64,000 nucleotides of DNA, taken from the NCBI GenBank assembly GCA_916610825.1, contig OU744446.1, forward strand, positions 23,946,445-24,010,444, read 5' to 3'. The position numbers and the translations under genes were made by a program. The stretch's first letter is position 1, and every line of letters starts with the position of its first letter. Positions 3,369-59,490 of this stretch are shown piece by piece. Below the pieces are notes generated by a model. The model worked only from the letters and a program-made list of their open reading frames with translations, did no database searches and had not been told where the DNA came from. The DNA is from Haliclystus octoradiatus. Taxonomy: Eukaryota; Cnidaria; Staurozoa; Stauromedusae; Haliclystidae.

Positions 3369-6300
3369 TTAACTACTATAATCGTATTGTTGATGTTGTT
3401 GATGTGCGTCGATTGGAGGTGGTGCAGCAGACATGGCAGCAGAATTGGATGGACCTTGCGTGAGGTACCCAGCCACACCTACAGGTCCCGTAAGGTATCC
3501 TGCAGAAGCTGTATCAGAAATGAATAAATCATGCTTTTGATCACGGAAGGCAGACCATACACTTGAAGAATCCAATATGCCATTGACCTAAAAAAGTAAA
3601 TGAAAAAAAAAGCTAACCTTGACCATTCTCAAATCCTCTATTACACTGAGAACAAATGAAAACAAACATTTCATTTTTGAAACAATGACCCTGCCTCTTT
3701 GAATGCCTCAAAAATGATGATACCTGTAACACACAATGAGCTGATGCGTAGAATAAGCTAATATTGACGGTGCAATTTTGAATTTTTTACTTTTCATGAC
3801 CATTTTTGATCACAGCTTTGCACCTTTTTCAAAATACTCTATTTTGAATGGTCGATCGGCGCTATCTTCTGCATGACAGATCCGTGAGCAGAATACCCGA
3901 GCTGCCCTTGGACGATATTCGTTTCACGTTCTCTTACTACCTAATAGTACTAGTAACAAATAGATAATCTTCAAAAATGCAGAATTTCAAAAAAAGAGAT
4001 TAAGGTTTAGCCTTCATCTCCGACAACCTCGGTATCTCAAATATTTCTTTCTTTGCATTTCATAGAACGTGACATGGAACATAATAACTTTGTTACTTGG
4101 ATATATACATATATATTTCCACAAACCGTTTCTGTATAATTCAAGTCACGACTCATGGCTTTGATTGCTTTTACTATCTGAGCTTTTGTCCCTGAGGGAT
4201 TTTTGACGTCTGTCATCCGACTATCGAGAATTGCCAATAAGAATTGGATTAGTTCAACGCGAATTGCCTGTTGGAAGACAATGAGATAAATTATTCACAA
4301 ATCAGTACTGTTTTCAGCTACCACATCAGCATGCTGTACACACATCATAGTTTGGTAAAGTTTAATTCAAGATTTATTATTCATTATTTAAGACTACAAG
4401 ACCCCTACAAGAGCTCATCAGCAACTTTAAAACGGATTTCTAAAACATTGGATTTAACACAACTAACTAATTTATGATGTTAACCGTATGCTATAATAAC
4501 GTCACGTGTCCTCAAAAGCAAAAGCAAACATAGTAGTAAAATGAAGATTAAAAAGCCAGTAATGAATAGTTGGGCTGATTTAACAATGTGACTGTTGCAT
4601 TTTGGTGGGGGCAATACAAGACATCCATTATACGAACAATGCAGTAAGATGACGTAAAACCTCTCTCATTAGCCATGAACCTGGGATATCATATGTATGG
4701 CAGGATGACTAAGAGTTTACCAATGAAAAATCTGGGATGTTGACATGATTTCCCAACAAGGGAACATTTCAAGAAAACATTTCAAAAACACAGTGCCAAA
4801 CATTTTCCCAATCAGAATTTTCTTCCCGGTGAGAGGGCTGTGTATCCCTGACAGAAGAGCGGTATCCCTGGATAAAAGTATTCTTACTTGAGCAACTAAA
4901 TCACTGTTATTCTTTTCAAACATCCGATTGAGTGTTTCAGCAGCAATATTCATAATATCAGGTCTGGTTTTCATAGCAACCATCAGCAATCGTATGCTAT
5001 CAGTTTGTCCCATTGTACGTACACAGAGCTTAAAAAACAAAAACAAAAATATAACATGACTAACCATAGACATTACCATTCACCATCACACAGTCATCGG
5101 TTGACAGCATTTTATATTTGGTACTCTTTTCACTAATGAGTTGTGATGGATTACTAGTTTTGAGAAAAATCAAGTAAATTAGCTGTCGGATGAAAGTCCC
5201 ATTTGGACCAGGCTCGGAAGTCACAATATCAGACTTCCATCCTTGTGAGACCAATTAGAACCTTGGTTTGGACATTCGATAGCATTCAGCATTATCGGCA
5301 GGCAACAGGAGCCCTCCAAAACATATATATTTCGAAACTCTAATGAATCTTGGTCAAATGTGCCAGAAACAAAGGTTACTCAGTTTAATAGACAAAACGA
5401 AAAAATTCAAATCCAAAGAAGGGGGTCGCAATCGGACAAGAGTATTGAATGAATGATCTCTTGTAGTAATATAGATACATTGAAGAGTGAATCTCATTCA
5501 ATAAGTAAACGTGTGACGTGGATTTTACATTTCACGAACCTCGTTATCAGATAACACGTGGATAACTTGTAAAGCTGATTTTGGAATGGCTGAATTCTGT
5601 GACGCCATTACTTGGAAGATTTGCGGTAAGTGGCCAAGTGCAGGAACCTGTAAAATGGATTACAACATTCAGAGATGATGCTGATTATAAAAATAACATG
5701 TGTTATATCGTGTGTACTGTTTGGATTTAGAATACATCACCTGGTCTGCAAGAGGAGGCTGTGCAGAAAAAAGGCAGACAATTGCTTGAGTGACAGTTTC
5801 CAAGATTTCGTTCTAAAGGAGAAATGAATAATAATTATAAATTAAAAAAATTAATTATAGTGAGTGTAAACTCAGATACACATAATGTGAAAGTGCTCAA
5901 CGTTGGGTAAAACAGAGCATTATATAATAAGAGAAATGAAGAATTTTATTTCGATGGATGCAAATTTTCAATTGGAAATTGGATTAGTCAATTTTCATGG
6001 TTATAAAGTTGGCAATCAAATGAAAGTCTTAAATTAGACAGTTCTGCGATTATTGGAGCGGTCCTTGTGTGCCTTGACATTTGATGCACATAGTCCAGTT
6101 TGCTTGTTCATTATTTAATGGAATCAAGAAGAAGCACTAATTTCTATATATCACACTATCTAAAGAAGCAACACAAATCCTAACATATAAAAGAGAGAGT
6201 CGCTTCAAACGTATGTACGCTAATAACTCTACCAATTCTCTATCAAAATGATCGAAAGCAGTATCATTCGAATCACTGTGTTATGATCTGAGTTTTTATT

Positions 6301-7554: not shown

Positions 7555-10500
7555 CTGCAAAAGAAGTTGATGAAAGTTAGAAGCATGTAAATGAAAGAAA
7601 TCATCTGTGAATATTTGAGCAGAAATGAAAAAACCCTTGAACCCTGTAGAATATCAACCAACTTGAAAATACATGCATTGATGACTCCACAAGAGTAGAC
7701 ATTGGAACATACCTAGCTTGAAGTTTCTTAACAATCCCAGACACTTTTTCTCTTGCATCGTCATTCCAAATCAATTCAGGATTTTCATGATTAGCTGAAA
7801 TCATTAACACAACGCATGATTGATTATGGAAATCAGTTAATCATGTGTTTGTTTTTAGAATACTGTCAATACTAAACGTAGTGCTGCAAACCAAGTTCAA
7901 AATCTTCAAAGTAATTGATGATTGAAAGACGACAGATAAGCCACATTTGTAATTAGGTGGACAATAATGGAGTTCCTGTTTGTCTGTAGCCTGACTTTAA
8001 AATTCATTAAAACAATTTATATTAGTCAAGTGCCAGTCCTTGTTGACAATGTTTGGATAAATGCATATCCGAACGAATCTAACGGAAGTTTAGACTTGCT
8101 CTTAATTAAGAGAGTTACTATGTATCAGAATGTCAGTCAGTCGTTCAGAGATATTTCCTGGATTTTAAAAATTAGGAATTATGTGAAATTTCAACATTAT
8201 ATTGACAAAGATGAAATGTACAAGTAAGTTACCTTCAAACATATGAACACTTGCTTCTGGGCTGTCTCTCATTGCATCCATAAAAATCGATGGTAAGAAT
8301 TTAGATAGTAAGATTTTCACTTTAGGACCAATTAATTTATCAGCCATCATCTTTGAAAACAATTCTGCTGACCTCGCTCTGACATTTGGATTGGGTGAAT
8401 TGCAGAACAAATCCAAAAGGTAAACTAAGGCGCCTGGTAAATAACAAAGAACAAATTTTAAAATAAAGACCAATATGTAGTTATTCAGACGGTATTGCCC
8501 TATCAGAGCAGGACGTATATTATCTTGTTTACAGAGCAGTTGGTCTGTTTGCTGAGAGCACTGAACATAAATTATTTTTACTGATCGCAGACGCAACACT
8601 TCAACTTTAATAGATTTCGTGACAGGCAGGCCTGAATTGTCATTCACTTCAACTTGGATAATTGTAAAAATGAACGTATTATGTTCCAAGGACCTATCTA
8701 GCAAAAACATCATCGTCATCACCATTGACTCAGAATACTTGGTACAATTTGAAAAAAGTTTTTTACTATATAGTACTTGAGACAGTATCGCCCTATCGAA
8801 GACCACTTTTCTATTTTTAGAGGAATTGCTTTTTTTGCTAAGAGCAGTGATTGTAAATATTCTTTACTGATCCCAGCCGCAACACTGCAGAGCAATTTCA
8901 ACAGATTTCATGGCAGATAGGTCACGATTGTCAGATAACTCTCCCCCGTTTTTTTACTGGACCAGTTGATAAACTAAACTATGAGATGCTCACACAGTCG
9001 CAAACAAAAATATATATACAGGTTAAATAAATATACTGTATGTATAATTGTAACAATTATTTGGGGTGATAACTGACCTTTGCTCATTGCTTCTTTGACT
9101 ATTTTTGTATTCGATAAGAGTGCATGCAGCGTGTCCAAGATTAGAAGACGACCTATCAACACACAATCAAATTACAATCTGCTCACTAGAATCCCAAACT
9201 GACTTAAGCTATGTTGCCGTTAATTGTGCTAACAGCTGACATTTAAAAGTCAAAAGTACCACACTTAAACATCCCCTGGCATCACCTTGTAACTTGCTCT
9301 ATGTCAATGCTGACTTATTCCTTGAGCATAAATTCATTCGCCAGAGTGGTATCACAATATTATTTACAGTATGTGTGTATGATGGGTATGCATACACAGA
9401 CATCCTACCTGACTCCAAATTAACACCAAGTTACACCAAGAATAACAATCTGTGACCTTACAACAGCACTATGGTCACACCACACAAATTAAATCATCAT
9501 CATCATCATCATCATCATCTTTATCTGTTAAATTCAACGTGGGAACACCTTCTCCATGGGAGTCCCAAGAAATTTTTTAATAATAAATTTGCCGACTCCA
9601 CCTGAATCCAATCTGGATATGTAACCGTAAATTTGAAACATATGAAGGTGCGGTATCCGGAGTTGAATCAGCCACACAAAGGTTTGCCATGTATATTTAC
9701 ATTGTACATTGACCTAAAGTCATCATCTGAATACTTGACAAGTGTAGCGAGTAACAATTTTCGGAGATCACATCGGGCAGTATTCATGATTTGTGTGGAC
9801 ATGAAATTAAAAGAACTCTCTTATTTCTACTCTTAGAAGGTGAACATCACAGATTTCCTTTGCTATTTCTCCCCTCTTTTACAGACTGGAGACATTTCAA
9901 GGAAGAATCACCGACTGATCAAGTCATCAGGGGGTGTCACGTCCCCCATACCCCCATACTAGGGCCCTGCCTTTCCCAACATATCCCAATGAATTAAACA
10001 TCAATTACAATATTAATCCCTTCAGACAAGTGGCTGCTATGAAAGGGAATGATAGTCACAATAATGGCAATGTTTGCAACTTACTGTCAGGGTTAGTATG
10101 AAGAGCAAGAAGTAAATACGTAAGGACGTCTGCATCAGCTATATTAGCCACACATTTGCTGTTACCAGTTACACTGGCTATGACCTATAACAACGCAAAA
10201 CAAAATGTAATCAATTTGAAAGGGTTTTACGTAATCAACATACCAAGAAGACATTGCAATTCATTATTATGGGAATAGCAGATCTATTCCATTTATTCAT
10301 TGGTTCGTCGTTATTTATAGCCTGCATGCAGCATGCCTACCTAAATCTTTTTTGATGACTAGAAGGGTTTGCGTAATATTGACATAAACCTTGCGCTGGA
10401 CTGAATTAGGGGAGTGGCTGAAACGTGAGAAATCTATTGTTTGTCTATTGTTGATCAGCCAATCGCTAGTGAGAACTAGAACCAGATTGTGATTGGCTGA

Positions 10501-38774: not shown

Positions 38775-38889
38775 TTTAATTGGGGTTAAATGAAATCCTG
38801 ATGTAATTTTACCGAGGTTAAACAATCATTATTAAGATGCGTATAGTGGTGAGTTATTTGTGATTAGTAAGTATGACAGCAGATCACAT
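38775..38889 (+). repeat. Element A, 5' direct repeat (115 bp)
   Basis: TTTAATTGGGGTTAAATGAA through GACAGCAGATCACAT. It matches 43200-43314 over 115 bp with only two differences (at AAACAA versus ACATAA). The near identity implies that they were copied from one template at the last transposition. Confidence 0.9.
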
Positions 38890-38936
38890 TATTTCTGGTT
38901 CTCAAACAATCCGTTTCTTTTGGTGGCGCGTCGATT

Positions 38937-39644
38937 GTGCAAGACGTGGCTAAAGCTGTACTGGGGATGTCGTCAACCATCACCAACTCAACAAATCAAG
39001 ATTTAGCGACATCCACCACAGAAGGTATGTCAGTAACATCATTTATTTCAACCTTTTCAATGCCTACCGACTCGAATGCTACTCTTCCTGGGCTGCCCTC
39101 GTCGCTGCTGGGCACTACTCCTGTTACGTTGAACACTTATACGGCACCATTGCTGGCTACGTCGAGTGGCCCTCAATCATTTTTACTTGGCCCTGGTTTC
39201 CCCCCGGTTCCAGCGAAGATAGTGGCTAACATTGTGAATGGGAAATTTGTTGAGTTAGGAGAGCTCTTGACTAAGGACATCGAAATCGAAAGTGAAACAC
39301 AACTTTTCGCCAACGGCCAACTGCTATTGACCCCAGCTGAGAGACGTCATACTCGCACAGTCGACGACATTATATCTTGGCTGGAAGCGTTCACTATCTA
39401 TTGCACCGTTATGACGCATCATCATTCATACCGTTGGCGTGATTTATGTTTATATAAAATGTTTATCATACGCACGATTCGCCAATTCGGTGGTCGTGCT
39501 TGGTTGTCTTACGACCGCGCATTTCGTCAACAAGCAGCCGTGTCAAATTTATGTGACTGGTCTGTACTTGATAGCCCGCTATTTAGTTTTCATACGGCGG
39601 CAACGGGAACATATTCACATTCTCCAGTTCAAAGAGGAGGGTGA
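38937..39644 (+). pseudogene. Element A gag-like ORF1 product
   Basis: About 235 codons of the structural protein. It has a Ser/Thr/Pro-rich N-terminal part, then LLGPGFPPVPAKIVANIVNG, LGELLTKDIEIE, QLFANGQLLLTP, ILSWLEAFTIY-like DIISWLEAFTIY, SYRWRDLCLYKMFIIRTIRQ and WLSYDRAFRQQAAV. The same blocks occur in the second copy at 50763-51490. The normal start (ATG at 50654 in the second copy) is missing, replaced by unrelated sequence at 38890-38930, so it is a truncated pseudogene. The C-terminal part continues into the zinc-knuckle segment in another frame. Confidence 0.8.
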
Positions 39645-41998: not shown

Positions 41999-42929
41999 AT
42001 TCCCAGGTGCAATTATACATATTTAATAGTCTGGCGCCTTCAACCCAACGGACATATTCATCGGCTCAAAAGCCTTACCTTCTGTTTTGCCAAAAGATTC
42101 ACGTGACAATGCCTTTGTCTGCTACCGAGCAACTGTTATGTCGGTTTGTAGCGTATTTGGCTCAAACCATGAAGCCTGCATCGATCAAAGTTTATTTATC
42201 TGCTGTGCGCTCTCTTCACATCGCTGAAGGATTAAACGACCCTTTATTGGACTGTAATTTGCTGCAAAAAGTTACCAAGGTATTAAAAAGACACACTTCT
42301 CTACACCAAAAGAACGGCTGCCAATAACAGACTCACTAATGCTTGTGATATTTAAATCACTCAATCTCCAACGGTTTGATGACTTGATGTTTTGGGCTGC
42401 CTGTACACTAGCTTACTTTGGGTTTTTGCGAGTTTCTGAGTTCACTGTACCTAATGCCTATGCGTTTGATTCAAAAATACATTTACATTTCAACGATTTG
42501 GCTTTTGACAATCATGCCCTGCCAGCCTGTCTCTGTGTCCATATCAAAGCCTCAAAAACAGACCCGTTTCGCCAAGGTTGCCACATCTATATTGGCCGTG
42601 TTACTTTCCCCTTATGTGCCGTGCAGACTATGAAGAGTTACCTTGCCAAACGAGGACAAGACAATGGACCTTTATTCCGCTTCTCATCTGGTATGCCATT
42701 AACAAGATCTCATGTGGCAAATTGGCTAAAAAATATATTTTCTGCTGCCCATCATCAGGGAGCTTATAATACACATAGCTTCAGAATCGGTGCTGCCACT
42801 GTGGCTGCCCAAAGAGTAGTCCCTGATCACGTGATTAAAGCGCTCGGTAGGTGGAAGAGCAATGCTTATACATTATACACTCAGACTTCTCCAGCTTCTT
42901 TGACTCAGGTTTCACAGCTGCTTTCTTAG
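41995..42929 (+). pseudogene. Element A tyrosine recombinase
   Basis: The N-terminal core-binding part reads LAPSTQRTYSSAQKPYLLFC and MKPASIKVYLSAVRSLHIAE. A frameshift near 42310 precedes the catalytic half (42339-42929): LAYFGFLRVSEFT, HIKASKTDPFRQGC, THSFRIGAATVAA (the H-x-x-R box), LGRWKSNAYTLY with the presumed nucleophile Tyr, and a stop at 42927. The catalytic half is uninterrupted. It would integrate the circular cDNA without a target duplication in the known DIRS mechanism. Confidence 0.85.
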
Positions 42930-50653: not shown

Positions 50654-51500
50654 ATGTCCCGCACAACACGGAATAGTCAAACCTCAAATTTACCTGTAAC
50701 AGAGAAAAATCAAGGCCAAATTTGCCATCTCGAACAATCTATCAACTGGAAATCAGTCGCATTTGATGCTATCGCCGGCTGATAGGCAAGCTATTGTGCA
50801 AGACATGGCAAAAGCCCTTTACGACTTAACATCACAAAATGCTATGGAATCACACTCAGCAAGATCAGCACAGACTCAGAACACATCGACAACACCAGCT
50901 GACAAAGGTATGTCTGTCCCATCATTTATTTCTAGTTTCGTATTGCCTTCTGCCTCTTATGACTCATTTCCACCGCTACCACCTTCAGTGTCCGCACCTC
51001 CGTTTGGCACAGTTCCTGTTAATGCATCTACTTCACCAATGTCTTCGCCATCATTGTTTGCTACTTCAACTGGCCCTCAACTGTTCTTAATCAGTCCTGG
51101 TTTTTCACCAGTACCAGCTAAGATTGTTGTTAACATCATCAGTGGCAAATTTATTGATTTGGGGGATCTGCTGGCTAACGACATTGTCAATATAGAAGGT
51201 GAACCTCAGCTTTTTGCTAATGGCCAACTCCTGTTGACTCCTTCTACAAGGCATCAACATCGCCGCATTGACAACATTTTATCTTGGCTGGAAGCCTTCA
51301 CGATTTATTCAATTGTTCTCACAAAGTATCATCCATACCGTTGGCGGGATCTCTCGCTGTAAAAATGTTCATAATTCGCACCTATCGTCAAATTAGTGGC
51401 TATGCGTGGTTATCGTACGACCGCGCCTATCGACAACAAGAAGCAGTATCCAACTCAACCGATTGGTCTATACTTGACAGCCCGTTGTAAAGTTACCACA
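50654..51500 (+). pseudogene. Second DIRS copy, gag-like ORF1
   Basis: The likely start is ATG at 50654 (MSRTTRNSQTSNLPVTEK). A frameshift near 50770 leads to LSPADRQAIVQDMAKALYDL and the long frame to 51362. This has a Pro/Ser/Thr-rich section, ISPGFSPVPAKIVVNIISGK, LGDLLANDIV, QLFANGQLLLTP and ILSWLEAFTIY. A second shift near 51361 leads to MFIIRTYRQISGYAWLSYD and RQQEAV. It is homologous to 38937-39644 throughout and two frameshifts make it inactive. Confidence 0.8.
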
Positions 51501-51709: not shown

Positions 51710-52973
51710 GTTAATTATTCAAAACGCTCCAGCTGCCTTCAATGGCGGGAACACAAAGAGGCGTTTCCCTAGAAATCTTTGTATTTAGTATGAAATGCAC
51801 TTTAGCTTATAATTGCTATTTGCTAATCTTTGAGTTTATTCCTGTATTAATGTCGTTAGATGTATGCAAGATCCGAAGATCGGTCGATAATTTCACTTTG
51901 TAGAATATTTCTTCACTTAGTTTTAATAAGTTTGTTAATTTTACTCTTGCTGTTGAATAATTATGCCTACTATAGTCTTATTTTTGTGTTGACCGACTTG
52001 AAGTGCTGTATATTTCATTACTATAAACTTGGTGTTACGCTACTATGGCTTGTTTAACCTATGACATTTCCATTCAAAGTTTCATTAATCTACAGCATCT
52101 GCTGCATGTTTTGCCGTATTATTCATAACCCTCGTAGTTCATTTCTGTTTGATAAAGAACTCAAAACAAGGTCACATTGTAACTTGCTGAAAATAGAAGT
52201 TTTGATAAAAAATAAATAAATAAAAATCTGTTCATTTCAATCTGACAGATAAATGTTTGCCCGATTAGTGTCAGCATGCATACGAACATAAAATTGTCAC
52301 AGCTGTTCTCGAATTCTTTGTTGTCACAAAATTTACCGCTTTCCTAAGAGTGGAGACACATACAATAGAAAATATTGATTGTATGGCACACGCGTCAGAA
52401 TTTACATTAAACAGTCGGTTTCAGCATGTTTAAAATCTCCAAGTTTCGCAAATCGAATGACACGCAATTCACTGAAAAATATTTAGGTCCACGGGAAAGA
52501 TTTAATATTTAATGTGACTGTTTTGGTTTCACTGTTTTCACTGAACTGAACTATTATACACTATAGTGGATACACGTAAGATAAATTTAATCCTTTTGAC
52601 AATCCAACTTGCCGCTGTGAATTGTATTTACGCCTTCAGCCATGATTTTGTGCTCTATTTTCCGTTTTATGAATCGGGAAACTATTCATAGCAATTTGCT
52701 GATACCAATTATCACATCATTTAAGCATTTCCTGTCTTTTCCGCATGAGCAAGCAGGAGACAAGAAGGCAGACTAGAGCAATTGTTTGGCTTGCCTCTCG
52801 AAAAAACTTGAATTGAAAATATTGTGTTTCCATGACAACAGTTAACATGCAAAAATGCATTGCCATGGTAATTTCATGTTTTGCAATCTTAAACAGAACC
52901 TTTTTGGCGGGAGCAGCAGAACCAACAATCATTATATTTGCATGTGTTTTTTCCCTATGGTCAGGGGGGCTTC
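51710..52973. other. Spacer of the second DIRS copy left of the RecQ element
   Basis: No coding seen; AT-rich with a short (AAAT)n near 52205. It and 57839-57933 together correspond to the gag-RT spacer of element A, although little primary similarity remains. The last nine bases, GGGGGCTTC (52965-52973), are the target duplication. Confidence 0.5.
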
Positions 52974-53028
52974 TAGCCTGCGTACCAGCCCCAAGGTTTT
53001 TTCTGAAACCATAGGGTCTGTGAACTAA
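52974..53028 (+). repeat. RecQ element left terminal inverted repeat
   Basis: TAGCCTGCGTACCAGCCCCA through GGGTCTGTGAACTAA. It matches the complement of 57775-57829 with a single substitution (CCCC versus CCCT). It ends only ~80 bp before the helicase start codon, so the helicase promoter must overlap or abut it. Confidence 0.92.
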
Positions 53029-53106
53029 TGTGTGATTTGCAGCCCAGCAAGTTCTCAAGAAATTGAAATATAATTTATGCGTTTCTTATTAATCATTCAT
53101 TTCATC

Positions 53107-55483
53107 ATGGCGGCTGCTCAACTGACTACGGCGTGTTTTGATGAAGATTTGTTTTCAAAGAGTTGTGATTATGTCTGTTCTCTATTTTTTATCGAAGAAA
53201 TGCGTTTGGAACAAAGGCAGGCGATCAAAGCCTTTCTTAAAGGAAAGGATATATTCTTTAGTGCCAACACAGGTTATGGGAAGTCATTTGTTTTTCAATC
53301 CCTGCCGTATATCGTAGACGCTATGAAAGGACACAATTTTGGCAGAAGCACTATGATTGTTGTTGTTCCGTTAAAAGCGCTCGCAGAAGATCAAAATAGA
53401 AAAATGAACATGTTAGGAATATCATCAGTCTCATTGCACGACAAAAATGAAGATACAAGTGAAACAATAAATAAAATTTTGACAGGTTCAATTTCTCTTA
53501 TTTATACTTCTCCCGAAGCAATACTGGATAATAGTTATTGGAGGCAACTAATGACTTTGGAATCTTTTCGAAACGATTGTATTGGAGTTGCAATTGACGA
53601 AGCACATTGCATCATTCAATGGTAAGCAGATGAGTGCCTTTTTTGACCTATTCAAAAAGATATTTATTTGACAACTTTTGTTTGATTATTTATTTTGTAA
53701 CATTTGATGTAACTAGGCCTACATCCCGTAACATTTTGTTGTTATGTATCCAATCTCAATTCAATTAGCCATAGTATATTTGCTTATAGTAGAAACATAT
53801 TGTTCATAATTTTGATATTTTGTAATGCCAGTCATAAGACTATTATTGACATCATACAATTCTTGATTTTGGTTTTCTTGAGTAATATTTAAAGGGGTGG
53901 GTAGGTAAGATTTTGCTTATTATCCTGCGTAAATATAGCAATATAGCCTGCGTATCAATCCCAAGGTTTTTTATAAAACCAATACAAAAATCTTGAGGCT
54001 TGTACACAAGCTAGGATAAATAACGATGATGATTATTGACATAGTTCTAAATTCTAGTATTTATTCAACTTTTCAGGGGTATGGATGAAAAGAAATTCAA
54101 ACCATTTAGGATCTGGTACTCCTAGCTATCAGAATTGAAATCTTTGTTAGATGGAAACCTTCAATTTGCTGTCTTTTCTGCAACTGCCAGAAAGTCTACA
54201 AAAATGAGAATTATCGACAACCTTTCTCTTAACTATGAACATTTATTTGTGATTGAGAAAAGCCCCAATAGAAATAACATCAAATATGCAGTGCAATATC
54301 TTGACAACGATGACGATATGGACATCATATTTTCCCCTCACATCAAAGATTTGAAACAGCATGGCATAAGTGGTGAGAGGACATTAATATTTTGCCAAAC
54401 ACGTAGCCAGTGTGTACTCCTTTATCGGACATTTGTAGGAGCACTTGATGATAAACTGTTTTTCGTGTGACTCAAAGTCATTGCAATCAAGAATTGTGGA
54501 AATGTTTCATGCAGATACCCCAGAAGCAGTAAAGAAGCATATTTTAAATCAAATGACCAATCCTGGTGGGTGTTTACGTCTGTTGATTTGTACTGTGGCG
54601 TTTGGTATGGGAATAGACTGTAAGAACGTGCACAGAGTGGTGCATTTTGGTCCACCAAAAAACATTGAACAGTATATACAAGAGAGTGGGAGAGTTGGAA
54701 GAGATAATGCCCCAAGTTGCAGTACAATTTTATATAATTCTTTGCTGTCCATGAAATGTGACCTAGAAATGCGGCTTTACATTAACAGCGTACAATGTCG
54801 TCGGGAGCAGATAAATGTTCAATTTGGAAACTTGTCCATTTCAAAAACTAATTTTGGTTGTAAATGCTGTGAAGTCTGTCTGAATACTTGTAATTGCGCT
54901 GACCCTACTTGTGGTGAATGGCTTCAGTTTGACATTCACAATTCCTCTGAAGAAGAATATGGTACTATTATACGGTCAGTAACGCCATTACAAAAAGAAG
55001 ATCTGCTTCAGAAACTACAAGAGTATCAAGGTCAGGTGTTGGAGAAATGCAATAATTTCAAACCAGTAGCCTATCCAAATCCTCTGCTGGAGTTATCAAG
55101 TTAGGCAGGTTATGAATAGCTGTCAAAAACTTTTCACCATTGCAGACATTTATAAATATGTGGAAATTAGGAAACGTATACATGCCAATAATATTATGCT
55201 TATTATAGAAGAGTTATTCTAAGACACTATTATTGATGTTGATAACCTAGTTATGACTGATAGTAACACTTACGATGAATGTGATAATTATGTTGCAGAC
55301 GATTGGTTAAACATTCGCGATGATTCTGAATATGAAGGCATCTTACTCGACAGTCAATTGGCACAGCAATTGGATGAAGATATTTCTGTTTTGGATGAAT
55401 CATTTTATAATTGCCTTAACATAAGCAAAGATTTAGAAATAGAAGAAGCCCCATCTGCTAAAAGATCAAGATATGAAAATTGA
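53107..55483 (+). pseudogene. RecQ-type SF2 DNA helicase, decayed, two exons
   Basis: Exon 1 (53107-53621; MAAAQLTTACFDEDLF is the better start than the ATG at 53077) has FRLEQ-like MRLEQRQAI, Walker A NTGYGKSF, VVVPLKALAEDQ, YTSPEAIL, and DEAHCIIQW, the RecQ form of the DExH box. The intron 53622-54076 is GT..AG. Exon 2 has AVFSATARKST (motif III), RTLIFCQTRS (IV), CTVAFGMGID (V) and HFGPPKNIEQYIQESGRVGR (VI), then a Cys cluster CKCCEVC...CNCADPTC and an acidic tail. It is broken by TAG at 54123, a shift in the T-run near 54460, a shift near 55100, and TAA at 55220. Such proteins unwind DNA 3' to 5'. Here the gene is most likely dead. Confidence 0.88.
53944..54013. repeat. ~70-bp fold-back with TAGCCTGCG end, inside the RecQ intron
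   Basis: TAGCCTGCGTATCAATCCCAAGG (53944) faces, in reverse, TAGCTTGTGTACAAGCCTCAAG (ending 54013), and GGTTTTTTATAAAACC is itself palindromic. The left arm resembles the RecQ-element terminus TAGCCTGCGTACCAGCCCCAAGG. It looks like two terminal repeats of the same family placed head to head. Confidence 0.6.
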
Positions 55484-55736
55484 AAGACATGAATATAATA
55501 TAAAATGTAATATAATAAAATATCTGAATGATTTGAAAAATAATTTTATAGCTTTATGGACTTTAATGTTATTAGAAATCTGTCCATATTTACATAATTC
55601 TATAAATACTTGTTTTAATGGCTATAGATAACAGTCAACTGCCATTAACAATTTACAGTGTTATGCTTTTGTCTATAGCCTATGGAATTGTTGAAAACAT
55701 GTACTATGATAATTAATTACAGGTTAATAATTCTAT

Positions 55737-56429
55737 TTATCGAGCTGATTTTTTAAGTGTGATTTTTTTTTTGTGATCAGTGATCCATTTGAACATACCA
55801 CTTATATTTAGACCATCTAATAGAGAATCATTCATCTTTTTGAAGTAATTGTATTTTCGTTTATTCACATATTCAAATGCGTTGTTAGCCATCACTTCAC
55901 TGATAACTTTGGATCTTTTGCCACTGGGCCAGTCAACTGTTAAATTCACTGATGTTGTTTTATTATTTGCAACAGTTTCTAGTAAATCCTCAGTATTTTG
56001 TTCGTGTGAGTTACCTTCACTTGCATTTCCTTGATGTTCTGAAAGGATTTGAGCTTGCTGTTGTATTGGCCTAACTGGAGTTGATGTCAGTGGTCCTTCG
56101 AATTGTAGAAACGGTAGCCCTTCTGGAGCACAAATTCGAAGAGAGCTGCCCTGAATGTCTGTATCAAAAGAGAGTCCTCTTCTTGGCACACAAGCATAAC
56201 TTTTGCATAATTCTTCTTCTAATGCGTTAAGTTTCTTCTTAGCATTTTCTAATTTAGTAATGTTCCTTAAACATCCTTGACAAACATAATCAGCACGAGT
56301 TAAATCCAATCGAAACGGTAAATAAGCAATAATATTTTGAAGTTTCTCCCTTTTCGAGCTGATGAGATTTCTATCACCATTAGATCTTGGTTCAAGAAGA
56401 CAAATTGCACAAGCAGCACTCCCACTCAT
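55737..56429 (-). CDS. Small zinc-binding protein of the RecQ element
   Basis: 230 codons, uninterrupted, ATG at 56427-56429, single exon. The N-terminus has CAICL (residues ~8-12) and YVCQGCLRNI about 40 residues later, a C-x2-C...C-x2-C zinc-binding arrangement, then a helical Lys/Glu stretch LENAKKKLNALEEEL. The middle is low complexity (Gln-rich, then a Glu/Asn/Thr-rich part). The C-terminal ~60 residues read VNLTVDWPSGKRSKVISEVM...AFEYVNKRKY, a [VI]-x-V-x-[WY]-P-S-x-x-R block. I recall the same block in uncharacterised cnidarian and fish proteins with this zinc motif. It is convergent with the helicase and is the only intact long frame in the element. A DNA-binding role is inference. Confidence 0.75.
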   Translation of the reverse strand: MSGSAACAICLLEPRSNGDRNLISSKREKLQNIIAYLPFRLDLTRADYVCQGCLRNITKLENAKKKLNALEEELCKSYACVPRRGLSFDTDIQGSSLRICAPEGLPFLQFEGPLTSTPVRPIQQQAQILSEHQGNASEGNSHEQNTEDLLETVANNKTTSVNLTVDWPSGKRSKVISEVMANNAFEYVNKRKYNYFKKMNDSLLDGLNISGMFKWITDHKKKITLKKSAR

Positions 56430-57222
56430 GCAGTAAACATTTCACGATTTAATGAAAATAAATAGAAAGAGGAAAAACTATTAACTACATATCAATATCT
56501 CAATATCTCAATCCATAGTGGAAAAGTGGCATGTTGCGCCGAAGATCTTCGGCGCAGCGCCACGATGCTGCGCAAGCATTTCGGCGCAAATTTTGCTGAT
56601 TTGTTGGCGCAGTCTGTTTTGGCGTGGCGCAAAATAATGTTTTTGAAAGGAAAATTGTTGGCGCAGCTCAAATCATTGACTTGATGAAAAGGAAGAATAT
56701 GTCTATGATTTTATCACAAAATCAAATCCTCCTCACCTTGAAATGTCAATATAGTGCGTTGGACTCTTGGAGCAGACTGCAGCTGTCGTGTAAGCCCAGT
56801 GTCCATTGTGTACGCCTTATTGACTGACACCTTAGACCTCTCCTCTTTCGAGGCTCCGTATGCGCAAGCACGGAATGAAATATTTTGTAAACAAAGCAGT
56901 GATGTTAGACGTCTGCGCACAGGGTTGATGCAGCGTAATCGATCTATTAACCCTTTGGGAGCTGAATAATTACAATGAATATCATGTATTTTTCATGGTG
57001 ATGTGGTAAAATGCCTGACTGCATTTTTGTTGTGCATGGGGGAATACATTCCCCGAGCAACAATGCAGTCAAGGTCAAAAGTCAATAGGAAAACGTTCCA
57101 AAGGAGAATACTGCAGAAACATTTATTACAATCAACATTTGATAAATTTAGATTATCTAAATTGTGATTCAATTTCAAATTTAATAACCATACATAAAAA
57201 GAAATGAAGAAAACATGTTGAT
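56430..57222. other. Non-coding right arm of the RecQ element
   Basis: Upstream of the zinc-protein gene, so its promoter should lie at 56430-56530. A GGCGC-rich cluster (56530-56670) is described separately. No other coding is supported. Confidence 0.5.
56530..56670. promoter_or_regulatory. GCGCC/GGCGC motif cluster with 20-bp palindrome
   Basis: GCGCCGAAGATCTTCGGCGC (56536-56555) is a perfect 20-bp palindrome. GGCGC or GCGCC recurs at least six more times to 56670 in otherwise AT-rich DNA, and TCTTCGGCGCA appears again at about 57626. It sits ~110 bp upstream of the zinc-protein start. Protein-binding sites are a reasonable guess only. Confidence 0.45.
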
Positions 57223-57290
57223 TGGTGTGGGGATCGAACCGCGATCCTCTGCAAAACGGTTACACGTGATAACCACTGGGCCACACATTC
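57223..57290 (-). tRNA. tRNA-like sequence, probably pseudogene or SINE head
   Basis: The minus strand reads TGGCCCAGTGGTTATCACG (box A-like) and GGTTCGATCCC (box B-like), with spacing right for a tRNA. Terminal GTGTGG and CCACAC can pair. The T stem (CGCGG against CCCAC) and the anticodon stem do not pair properly, so I do not assign an anticodon. It lies in the non-coding right arm of the RecQ element. Confidence 0.4.
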
Positions 57291-57774
57291 TTCAATAAAG
57301 TTGACTTTCATTAAATTTATTGAATAACCTCATGAACAGCTAAAACTCAAAATATGGTCAGTCGAAATCAAGCATAAAATTCAGTACATAAAATTTTAGT
57401 ACAAACATAACAAGCCAGAAAGGTTCACGCTGCACTGTTCAACGCTGATTCAACGTCTTGAAGAAGGCAAATGCATGGGCAAATGTACAAAATGAGCAAG
57501 AACAACAATCGAATGAAAACGAGACCAAATAAATATGACGTCATTGAAAAATTTTGGATATTTGATTTTTGGCGCAAAAGATGGAAAAATGGCTTCAAAC
57601 AATGCAAATTCTGCTGGCGTAATCTTCGGCGCACAAAAAACAGGTATTCCAGTATGGATCTCAATATCAACCACGCAACTTTTCTGCCCTTTTAGATGGC
57701 CTCCTTTTGTCAACCTCATGCCCACGCGAATAATTAACCATAGGTGTGATCTTAATTGGACAGAAAGCGGCGTT
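57291..57774. other. Non-coding, right arm of the RecQ element
   Basis: Contains TTTTTGGCGCAAAAG (57567) and TCTTCGGCGCACAAAA (57622), echoing the motif cluster to the left. A 91-codon minus frame at 57450-57725 overlaps them and has no recognisable domain. Confidence 0.4.
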
Positions 57775-57829
57775 TTAGTTCACAGACCCTATGGTTTCAG
57801 AAAAAACCTTAGGGCTGGTACGCAGGCTA
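57775..57829 (-). repeat. RecQ element right terminal inverted repeat
   Basis: Reverse complement of the left terminus over 55-56 bp with one mismatch. It is followed at once by the target duplication GGGGGCTTC. Confidence 0.92.
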
Positions 57830-57933
57830 GGGGGCTTCAGGCCTAACAATTTACTTTATTTATTAATTAATTTATTTATTTAATTAATATTTTTCTGCTT
57901 CTATTATTGCATTTTTATCATGTTTTATTACAG

Positions 57934-59036
57934 CACCTTATGGTTTACCTTCTGCCCAAATGGTTACCCCTTTGCATGCGGATTGGTTTGCTGCGGAGTT
58001 GCTAAATCATCCTGACCCTCAACTAGTGTCATATGTCTTGAACGGATTGAAATTTGGTGTTTGTGTGGGCTTCCATGGCACACCCCTCAAATCTGCCAAA
58101 AAGAATAAGCCAACAGCATCAGATAATCAGTGTGTCATTGACGAATATTTAGTCAACGAAACAAGATTAGGACGGGTTACAGGCCCATTTGACATTTCAC
58201 CATTACCACACCTTCATATCAGTAGTTTTGGGGGTAATCCCCAATCGAGGGCAGCACGGTAAAAGGCGTCTATTTGTGGATCTTTCGTCCCCGCATGGCT
58301 ATAGTGTGAATGATGGCATCAATTCTTCGGATTTTACTTTGCAGTATGTGCGAGTAGACAATATTATCCAAATGGTTTGCCATCCAGGTCGAGGTGCCCT
58401 CATAGCAAAATTTGATGTTAAGGCAGCCTATCGAAATGTAGCAGTCCATTCTGCTGATAGGTATCTTCTTGGCATGGAGTGGAGAGGGAAGTACTTTGTG
58501 TTGCTTGCGCGGTTGGATGGATTCTCATCAACAACTACGGCGTGACCAATCTAGTCCACTATCTAGATGATTTCATCATGGCAGGCCCACCTAATTCTGA
58601 TATATGCTTGACCCAATTCAATTTGTCTCTTCAAGTCTGTTCCCAGTTAGGTCTTCCACTGCATCCTACTAAATGTTTGAGCCCATCTTCCATTATGATT
58701 GTACATGGAATCATGCTCAATTCGTTAGATCAAATAGCTCGTCTACCTGATGACAAGTTGAGGGATTTAAAAGGCCTAATTGCTTCTTGGAATACCAAAC
58801 GACATTGCACGCTGAAGGACCTACAGTCACTGGTTGGTCACCTGCATCACGCAGCTAAGGTGGTATGGCCTGGTCATACATTCATTCGTCGGATGCTTAA
58901 TTTATTTAGTGGTTTCAGACATCCTGATCACATCATTCGCCTCAACGTAGAGTTTCGAAGGGATCTTGACTGGTGGGATAATTTTCTCAGCCTTTGGAAC
59001 GGGTCTCTTTCTGGCTATATCCTGGAGTCCCAATTC
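57934..59036 (+). pseudogene. Second DIRS copy, reverse transcriptase
   Basis: It follows TTTTATTACAG: GLPSAQMVTPLHADWFAAEL, LNGLKFGVCVGFHG, a shift near 58255, RRLFVDLSSPHGYSVNDGI, LIAKFDVKAAYRNVAVHSAD (motif A Asp), LLGMEWRGKYF, then a frame change to NNYGVTNLVHYLDDFIMAGP with the catalytic YLDD. LQSLVGHLHHAAKVVWPGHT is the thumb. The PFGL-type motif between the fingers and YLDD is missing by the same small deletion as in element A. Two or more shifts inactivate it. Confidence 0.85.
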
Positions 59037-59490
59037 TGAGTGACATCTCTGTGGCTTCTGATGCATCAGGTTCCTTAGGCTATAGGGCATTTTTTAATCA
59101 ACAGTGGTTCAATGGGATATGGTCACCTTCCCAGATTCACCAATCTATTGCATTCAAAGAACTATTTCCAATTGTCTTATCTGCCCACGTTTGGGGTCGA
59201 CAATGGTAACGTCAATATGTAATATTCAAATGTGATAATGAAGTAGTTTTCATTTTGAACAAGCGTTCTTCCAAGATTCCAGCTATAATGCAGCTCATAC
59301 GTTCCATGTTGATGGCAGCTGCTTGCCACAATTTTTCTTTTTCCTCTGAACATGTACCAGGAGATACTAACTGCATTGCTGACGCTTTATCTCGTTTTAA
59401 TTGGCAGGCATTCTATCAACTGGCTCCATCTGCTCACCATTACACAGCACCACTACCGGAAGCATTGGCAACATTGATGTCAATCTTCTA
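59037..59490 (+). pseudogene. Second DIRS copy, RNase H domain
   Basis: ISVASDASGSLGYRAFFNQQ then IAFKELFPIVLSAHVWGRQW (first Asp and the Glu), a stop at 59207, then NKRSSKIPAIMQL and FSSEHVPGDTNCIADALSRF. It is better preserved than in element A, with one in-frame stop near the centre. Confidence 0.8.

Follow-up and report, generated by a model that had tools for sequence, protein, structure and literature searches.

A helicase-bearing element with inverted termini in Haliclystus octoradiatus is probably an internally deleted copy of an AcademH-like DNA transposon

A stretch of 64,000 bp from the staurozoan Haliclystus octoradiatus (assembly GCA_916610825.1, contig OU744446.1, positions 23,946,445 to 24,010,444; hereafter the window, G000:C1:23946445-24010444 in our searches of 262 Mb in 33 contigs) contains an element bounded by terminal inverted repeats (TIRs) and flanked by a target site duplication (TSD), in which a RecQ-like helicase gene converges on a second open reading frame (ORF) with a zinc domain. 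The locus raises the question of how such an element was mobilized without a recognizable transposase, and the original prediction left two answers, a little-described superfamily in which helicase and zinc protein are part of the mobility apparatus or a derivative that had lost its transposase. Comparison with other copies bore out the second answer, and we assign a probability of about 0.9 to the reading that the window element is non-autonomous and arose by internal deletion from a cut-and-paste DNA transposon of the AcademH kind. The apparent helicase element without a transposase would then be a deletion artefact of the choice of copy.

Three longer relatives (E1, E2 and E3) were read end to end, and all had termini resembling those of the window element and a helicase gene convergent with a multi-exon gene encoding the DUF6589 domain (PF20231, E value of 2.6e-23 in an exon of E3). 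E1 (locus C1:28045300-28054203) was 6948 bp in length with a perfect TIR of 53 bp and the TSD TATAACCGG, E2 was about 7.2 kb with a TIR of about 120 bp at 80% and the TSD GGTGTTGTA, and E3 was about 6.9 kb with a TIR of about 80 bp at 96% and the TSD TATTAATAC. The TIRs of the complete relatives started with TAG(C/T)CTGCGT. An exact TSD of 9 bp, varying in sequence, was present in all four elements with both ends (the window copy and E1 to E3). Genome-wide, 18 of 24 DUF6589 matches had a convergent helicase match within 5 kb and one more had one at 7.6 kb, a count that left out seven of 52 helicase rows (second matches overlapping or beside a listed one).

Searches of the genome by protein returned these 52 helicase rows and 26 rows for the zinc ORF. 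The zinc ORF, predicted to be an intact gene, did have an uninterrupted frame of 230 codons starting at its ATG, but residues 7-181 matched the 5' coding part of the long convergent gene of E1 and residues 185-230 matched its 3' end, two parts that in E1 are about 3.3 kb apart with the DUF6589 exons in between. By these alignments the ORF is an in-frame fusion that joins the N-terminal zinc domain of a DUF6589 protein to the last 50 or so residues of that protein, a remnant and not a whole gene. A sister copy, E4 (C4:10164700-10173300, reversed), was collinear with positions 1-1522 of the window element at 95.7% and with positions 1518-2925 at 96.8%, interrupted by about 330 bp found only in E4. 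Past window position 55898, E4 continued into DUF6589 and its upstream exons whereas the window copy continued into the zinc exon, the 5' part of the gene. The internal deletion removed the putative transposase core from the window copy, which lacks a transposase for this reason.

The inverted arms at 52973-53028 and 57775-57830 were 56 nt long and 98% complementary, in line with the 56 bp and single mismatch originally described, and the TIR proper is 55 bp as the outermost base pair of the arms is a chance pairing of the flanks. The TSD was exact on both sides, again as described. An empty-site search of the genome, in which 120 bp of each flank were joined with one copy of the TSD, returned 22 rows including six that spanned the junction at 87-90% identity, two that were the element's own flanks and 14 partial matches. 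All six spanning sites were fetched and consisted of the uninterrupted flanking repeat with one GGGGGCTTC; they show the empty site of the window element. Joined flanks of E3, which sits in a repeat resembling a non-LTR (non-long terminal repeat) element, gave 40 genome rows, 36 of them junction-spanning, including 28 that aligned over 227 or more of the 240 bases with an identity of at least 90%, and two fetched empty-site copies were letter-identical to the joined flanks. Ten of eleven loci compared with E3 (L018-L028) were 99.5-100% identical to it over 3.3-3.6 kb, and these near-identical relatives indicate that the family moved recently. E3 at G000:C2:2453598-2460471 and the ten loci (L018, L019, L021-L028) make up a family with helicase and DUF6589 genes. 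The N-terminal frame of E3 was split at 8267-8269 of E3 by either an intron or a stop. E1 was located inside another repeat-like coding region with an adjoining minus-strand ORF.

The window helicase matched the Pfam domains DEAD (E value of 2.4e-19) and Helicase_C (3.2e-15) above their cut-offs, and the motifs TGYGKS, DEAH and QESGRVGRD were recognizable by eye. The RecQ-type helicase with superfamily 2 (SF2) motifs of the original prediction was therefore present in its domains and motifs, but RecQ_Zn_bind remained below its cut-off (E value of 0.045) and the gene is a pseudogene. Lesions private to the window copy relative to E4 were a stop at 54123-54125, a frameshift near 54459 and a stop at 55220-55222, while a frame change near 55094 was common to both. 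In E1 the helicase exons were open over 174 and 472 codons. Among the 120 listed of 4127 helicase homologues, the first 55 had E values of 1e-133 to 2e-23, ordinary RecQ-type proteins with RQC/HRDC domains first showed up at 3.7e-15, and named sources included Rhopilema, a gorgonian and a sponge. By similarity, the element helicase forms a group of its own. The helicase intron contains a stretch, also present in E4, whose first 38 nucleotides were 87% identical to the element terminus; this may be a TIR-like short insert or a subterminal repeat.

Pfam assigns no function to DUF6589. All 82 homologues of the DUF6589 protein carried PF20231, and just two of them had a named source, in both cases Rhopilema esculentum (45-50% identity). 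In an alignment of 36 of the 82, candidate acidic residues were identical in every row with a letter at the position (D54 in 5/5, D210 in 6/6 and E524 in 35/35 of the 36), and a C-x4-C/H-x3-H pair was located between D210 and E524. We infer that D54, D210 and E524 may be a DDE triad. The relatives share the domain with the DUF6589 proteins in Pfam through the C-terminal exon of their second gene, and here it is inside a TIR element with an adjoining helicase.

These features are consistent with a cut-and-paste element that would make a staggered cut of 9 bp. The complete relatives carry a pair of convergent genes, one for a RecQ-like SF2 helicase and the other for a multi-exon protein that has a zinc domain at its N-terminus, putative catalytic acidic residues and the DUF6589 part at its C-terminus. 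The DUF6589 protein would be the likely DDE transposase, responsible for cutting and joining the element ends and presumably assisted in transposition by the helicase. In the window copy a deletion, either before insertion or in place afterwards, brought the two coding ends of the second gene, 5' and 3', together in one frame and so produced the zinc protein, and the window copy would be mobile, if at all, only via proteins from other copies.

Shorter copies with the same ends were also abundant. In the genome, 51 matches were recorded for the leftmost 127 bp of the element (40 of 694 candidates scored) and 46 for its rightmost 127 bp (40 of 580 scored). End pairing used 27 of the 51 left rows (long matches, own copy omitted) and 28 of the 46 right rows, and 25 of the 27 left ends were paired with a right end 399-459 bp away, giving miniature elements of about 450 bp. 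In six of six examined, element positions 1-346/348 were joined to positions 4751/4754-4856, and the miniature elements are one deletion product that was multiplied, another deletion product of the window element's family. Their TSDs were exact 9 bp repeats in five of the six with both ends. At L008, positions 1501-1949, a miniature copy was inserted in the terminus of another miniature copy and its TSD, CCTGCGTAC, is TIR sequence. The family can be arranged in a deletion series from two-gene elements of 6.9-7.2 kb through the window remnant of about 3.7 kb, with the nested repeat excluded, to the miniatures of about 450 bp.

That nested repeat (Table 1), which did not feature in the original description, is about 1145 bp long with GGCGCA-rich ends that resemble imperfect inverted repeats. 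A tRNA-like stretch was observed near 57230-57290 within it, and a tRNA scan of the region called no tRNA gene there. The flanks of the window element are part of a repeat with a gag-like ORF and a reverse-transcriptase-like ORF, one on either side, and the ORFs at 50700-51362 and 58461-59039 are those of this repeated retroelement, interrupted by the transposon. The reverse-transcriptase-like ORF had no Pfam match and was recognized by eye. Elsewhere in the window, a Phage_integrase-like ORF (42258-42929; 25.1 bits, below the cut-off of 27.1) adjoins a similar gag-like ORF (38877-39644), which suggests a tyrosine-recombinase (DIRS-like) retroelement.

Table 1. Coordinates of the window element and its parts (positions in the window)
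Feature	Position	Strand	Remarks
Element	52974-57829		TIR-bounded, within the window
Left TSD	52965..52973	.	9 bp, GGGGGCTTC; single copy in 6/6 fetched empty sites
Right TSD	57830..57838	.	9 bp
Left TIR	52974..53028	+	Starts TAGCCTGCGT
Helicase exon 1	53107..53625	+	Walker A TGYGKS and DEAH of the DEAD domain; 52% identity with E1
Intron stretch	53944..54016	+	TIR-like 38-mer start; looks inverted-repeat bounded; right boundary by eye
Helicase exon 2	54077..55483	+	Helicase_C, broken; splice sites by eye
Zinc-protein ORF	55737..56429 with stop	-	230 codons; N-terminal CxxC...CxxC zinc domain and C-terminal tail of a DUF6589 protein, in-frame fusion
Interval with internal-deletion junction	55877..55898	.	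Collinearity with E4 stops at 55898
Nested unrelated repeat, outside the element proper	56513..57657	.	24 other near-full-length copies, 94-99%, among 40 candidates scored
Right TIR	57775..57829	-	

Several results count against the internal-deletion reading. E4 was incomplete, its right TIR and N-terminal zinc exon not being found in the 8601 bp read, and the deletion is consequently seen from the 3' side in E4 and from the 5' side in the more distant E1 to E3, which have about 29% identity to the zinc ORF and supply the evidence that the zinc exon is adjacent. None of the 26 genome rows contained the fusion joint apart from the window copy, and a contiguous zinc ORF occurred once among them. 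The zinc domain scored below the zf-AD cut-off of 28 bits (13.6 and 17.3, the window ORF having 13.6), and a PDB profile search with the DUF6589 alignment produced nothing beyond weak matches to zinc fingers, the best of them with an E value of 0.0018. Six of the 24 DUF6589 matches were without a helicase within 5 kb, five of them with none near. For the miniatures, the TSD of L007 agreed at 8/9 positions with one mismatch, and in a seventh copy, L002, the pattern used did not locate a right end.

The two ORFs of the window copy, with the zinc frame intact, are what would be expected if helicase and zinc protein alone moved an element of its own superfamily without a DDE transposase. In all three end-to-end relatives, however, the zinc ORF corresponds to the two ends of a DUF6589 gene, the contiguous ORF is the single one just mentioned and the window helicase is broken; with the missing exons evident in E1 to E4, a new superfamily of this type was rejected and receives almost no credence from us. 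The intact frame could also reflect selection. The KP product of P elements is a truncated repressor, and by analogy the fused zinc ORF might be maintained as a truncated DNA-binding repressor of its family, as the fusion kept the frame and its 230 codons are uninterrupted next to a decayed helicase. At three private lesions per 640 or so helicase codons, about one would nevertheless be expected in 230 codons, so that by hand arithmetic the frame would be intact by luck about one time in three, and the 26 rows yielded no second copy of the fusion by which to gauge its conservation. We regard selection on the fusion ORF as very improbable. It would similarly be a long shot that the fusion acts as a repressor made by the element itself, or as a trans-acting competitor, persisting after the loss of the transposase core and the helicase, and that DUF6589 is, in addition, the Academ transposase family; self-regulation through deletion products, as in P elements, would then also apply to AcademH-like elements.

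Among the known superfamilies, Helitrons are not known to have TIRs or TSDs and were rejected, as both are present here. The target duplication of Kolobok elements is TTAA, and KolobokH was rejected on the TSDs GGGGGCTTC, TATAACCGG, GGTGTTGTA and TATTAATAC, which are 9 bp and varied. A helicase-bearing Kolobok (KolobokH or similar) in place of AcademH would share the combination of DNA transposon and RecQ helicase, as KolobokH encodes a RecQ helicase and Kolobok-1_CCri has one on the complementary strand (PMC9587614), but the same article describes KolobokH as known only from fungi. With the TSDs as they are, a Kolobok origin is highly improbable. The relatives could instead be a helicase-bearing DUF6589 lineage distinct from AcademH that shares TSD length and helicase by chance, given that AcademH was compared by description alone and that no mention of the word DUF6589 was found in the literature searched. 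Their TSD length, helicase and presence in animals agree, however, with the AcademH summary in two articles (PMC10045372, PMC10799480), and a chance resemblance is unlikely. The internal-deletion copy of an AcademH-like transposon remains the preferred reading.

AcademH is reportedly a lineage of the Academ superfamily found in animals and fungi and is said to go back to Kojima 2020, Mob DNA 11:15. According to PMC10045372, AcademH has a TSD of 9 or 10 bp tied to a helicase and AcademX one of 3 or 4 bp tied to a nuclease, and PMC10799480 cites AcademH as helicase-bearing. The statement in the original prediction that Academ duplications are shorter therefore holds for AcademX and not for AcademH. 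AcademX, a fellow member of the superfamily provided that the element is rightly labelled AcademH, was rejected on the 9 bp TSD and on the absence of XPG_I near the DUF6589 loci (three genome matches, none near any of the 24 DUF6589 matches). The likeness to AcademH, compared by description only, consists of a TIR-bounded element with a helicase and a TSD of 9 or 10 bp in an animal host (PMC10045372 and PMC10799480). The window copy and E1 to E3 have TSDs within this range, the DEAD and Helicase_C domains exceed their Pfam cut-offs even in the broken window copy, and TIRs are present in all four, a match in the presence of TIRs and not in consensus termini. The original prediction would have yielded to a catalogued superfamily of the same layout, and AcademH is one in TSD length and helicase as judged from published text and not from Repbase sequences; the element is in this sense AcademH-like. 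As for a DDD/E transposase of the Academ type, the relatives carry the DUF6589 protein as a candidate, the core of which is missing from the window copy. Should DUF6589 prove to be the Academ transposase, a function could be assigned to the many DUF6589 proteins that are still unnamed. The present copies link this Pfam domain to TIR elements with 9 bp duplications in an animal genome. Compared with AcademH, the window copy is without a transposase core and has a broken helicase and a nested repeat, and to a helicase-bearing type that is already known it adds a tidy deletion series.

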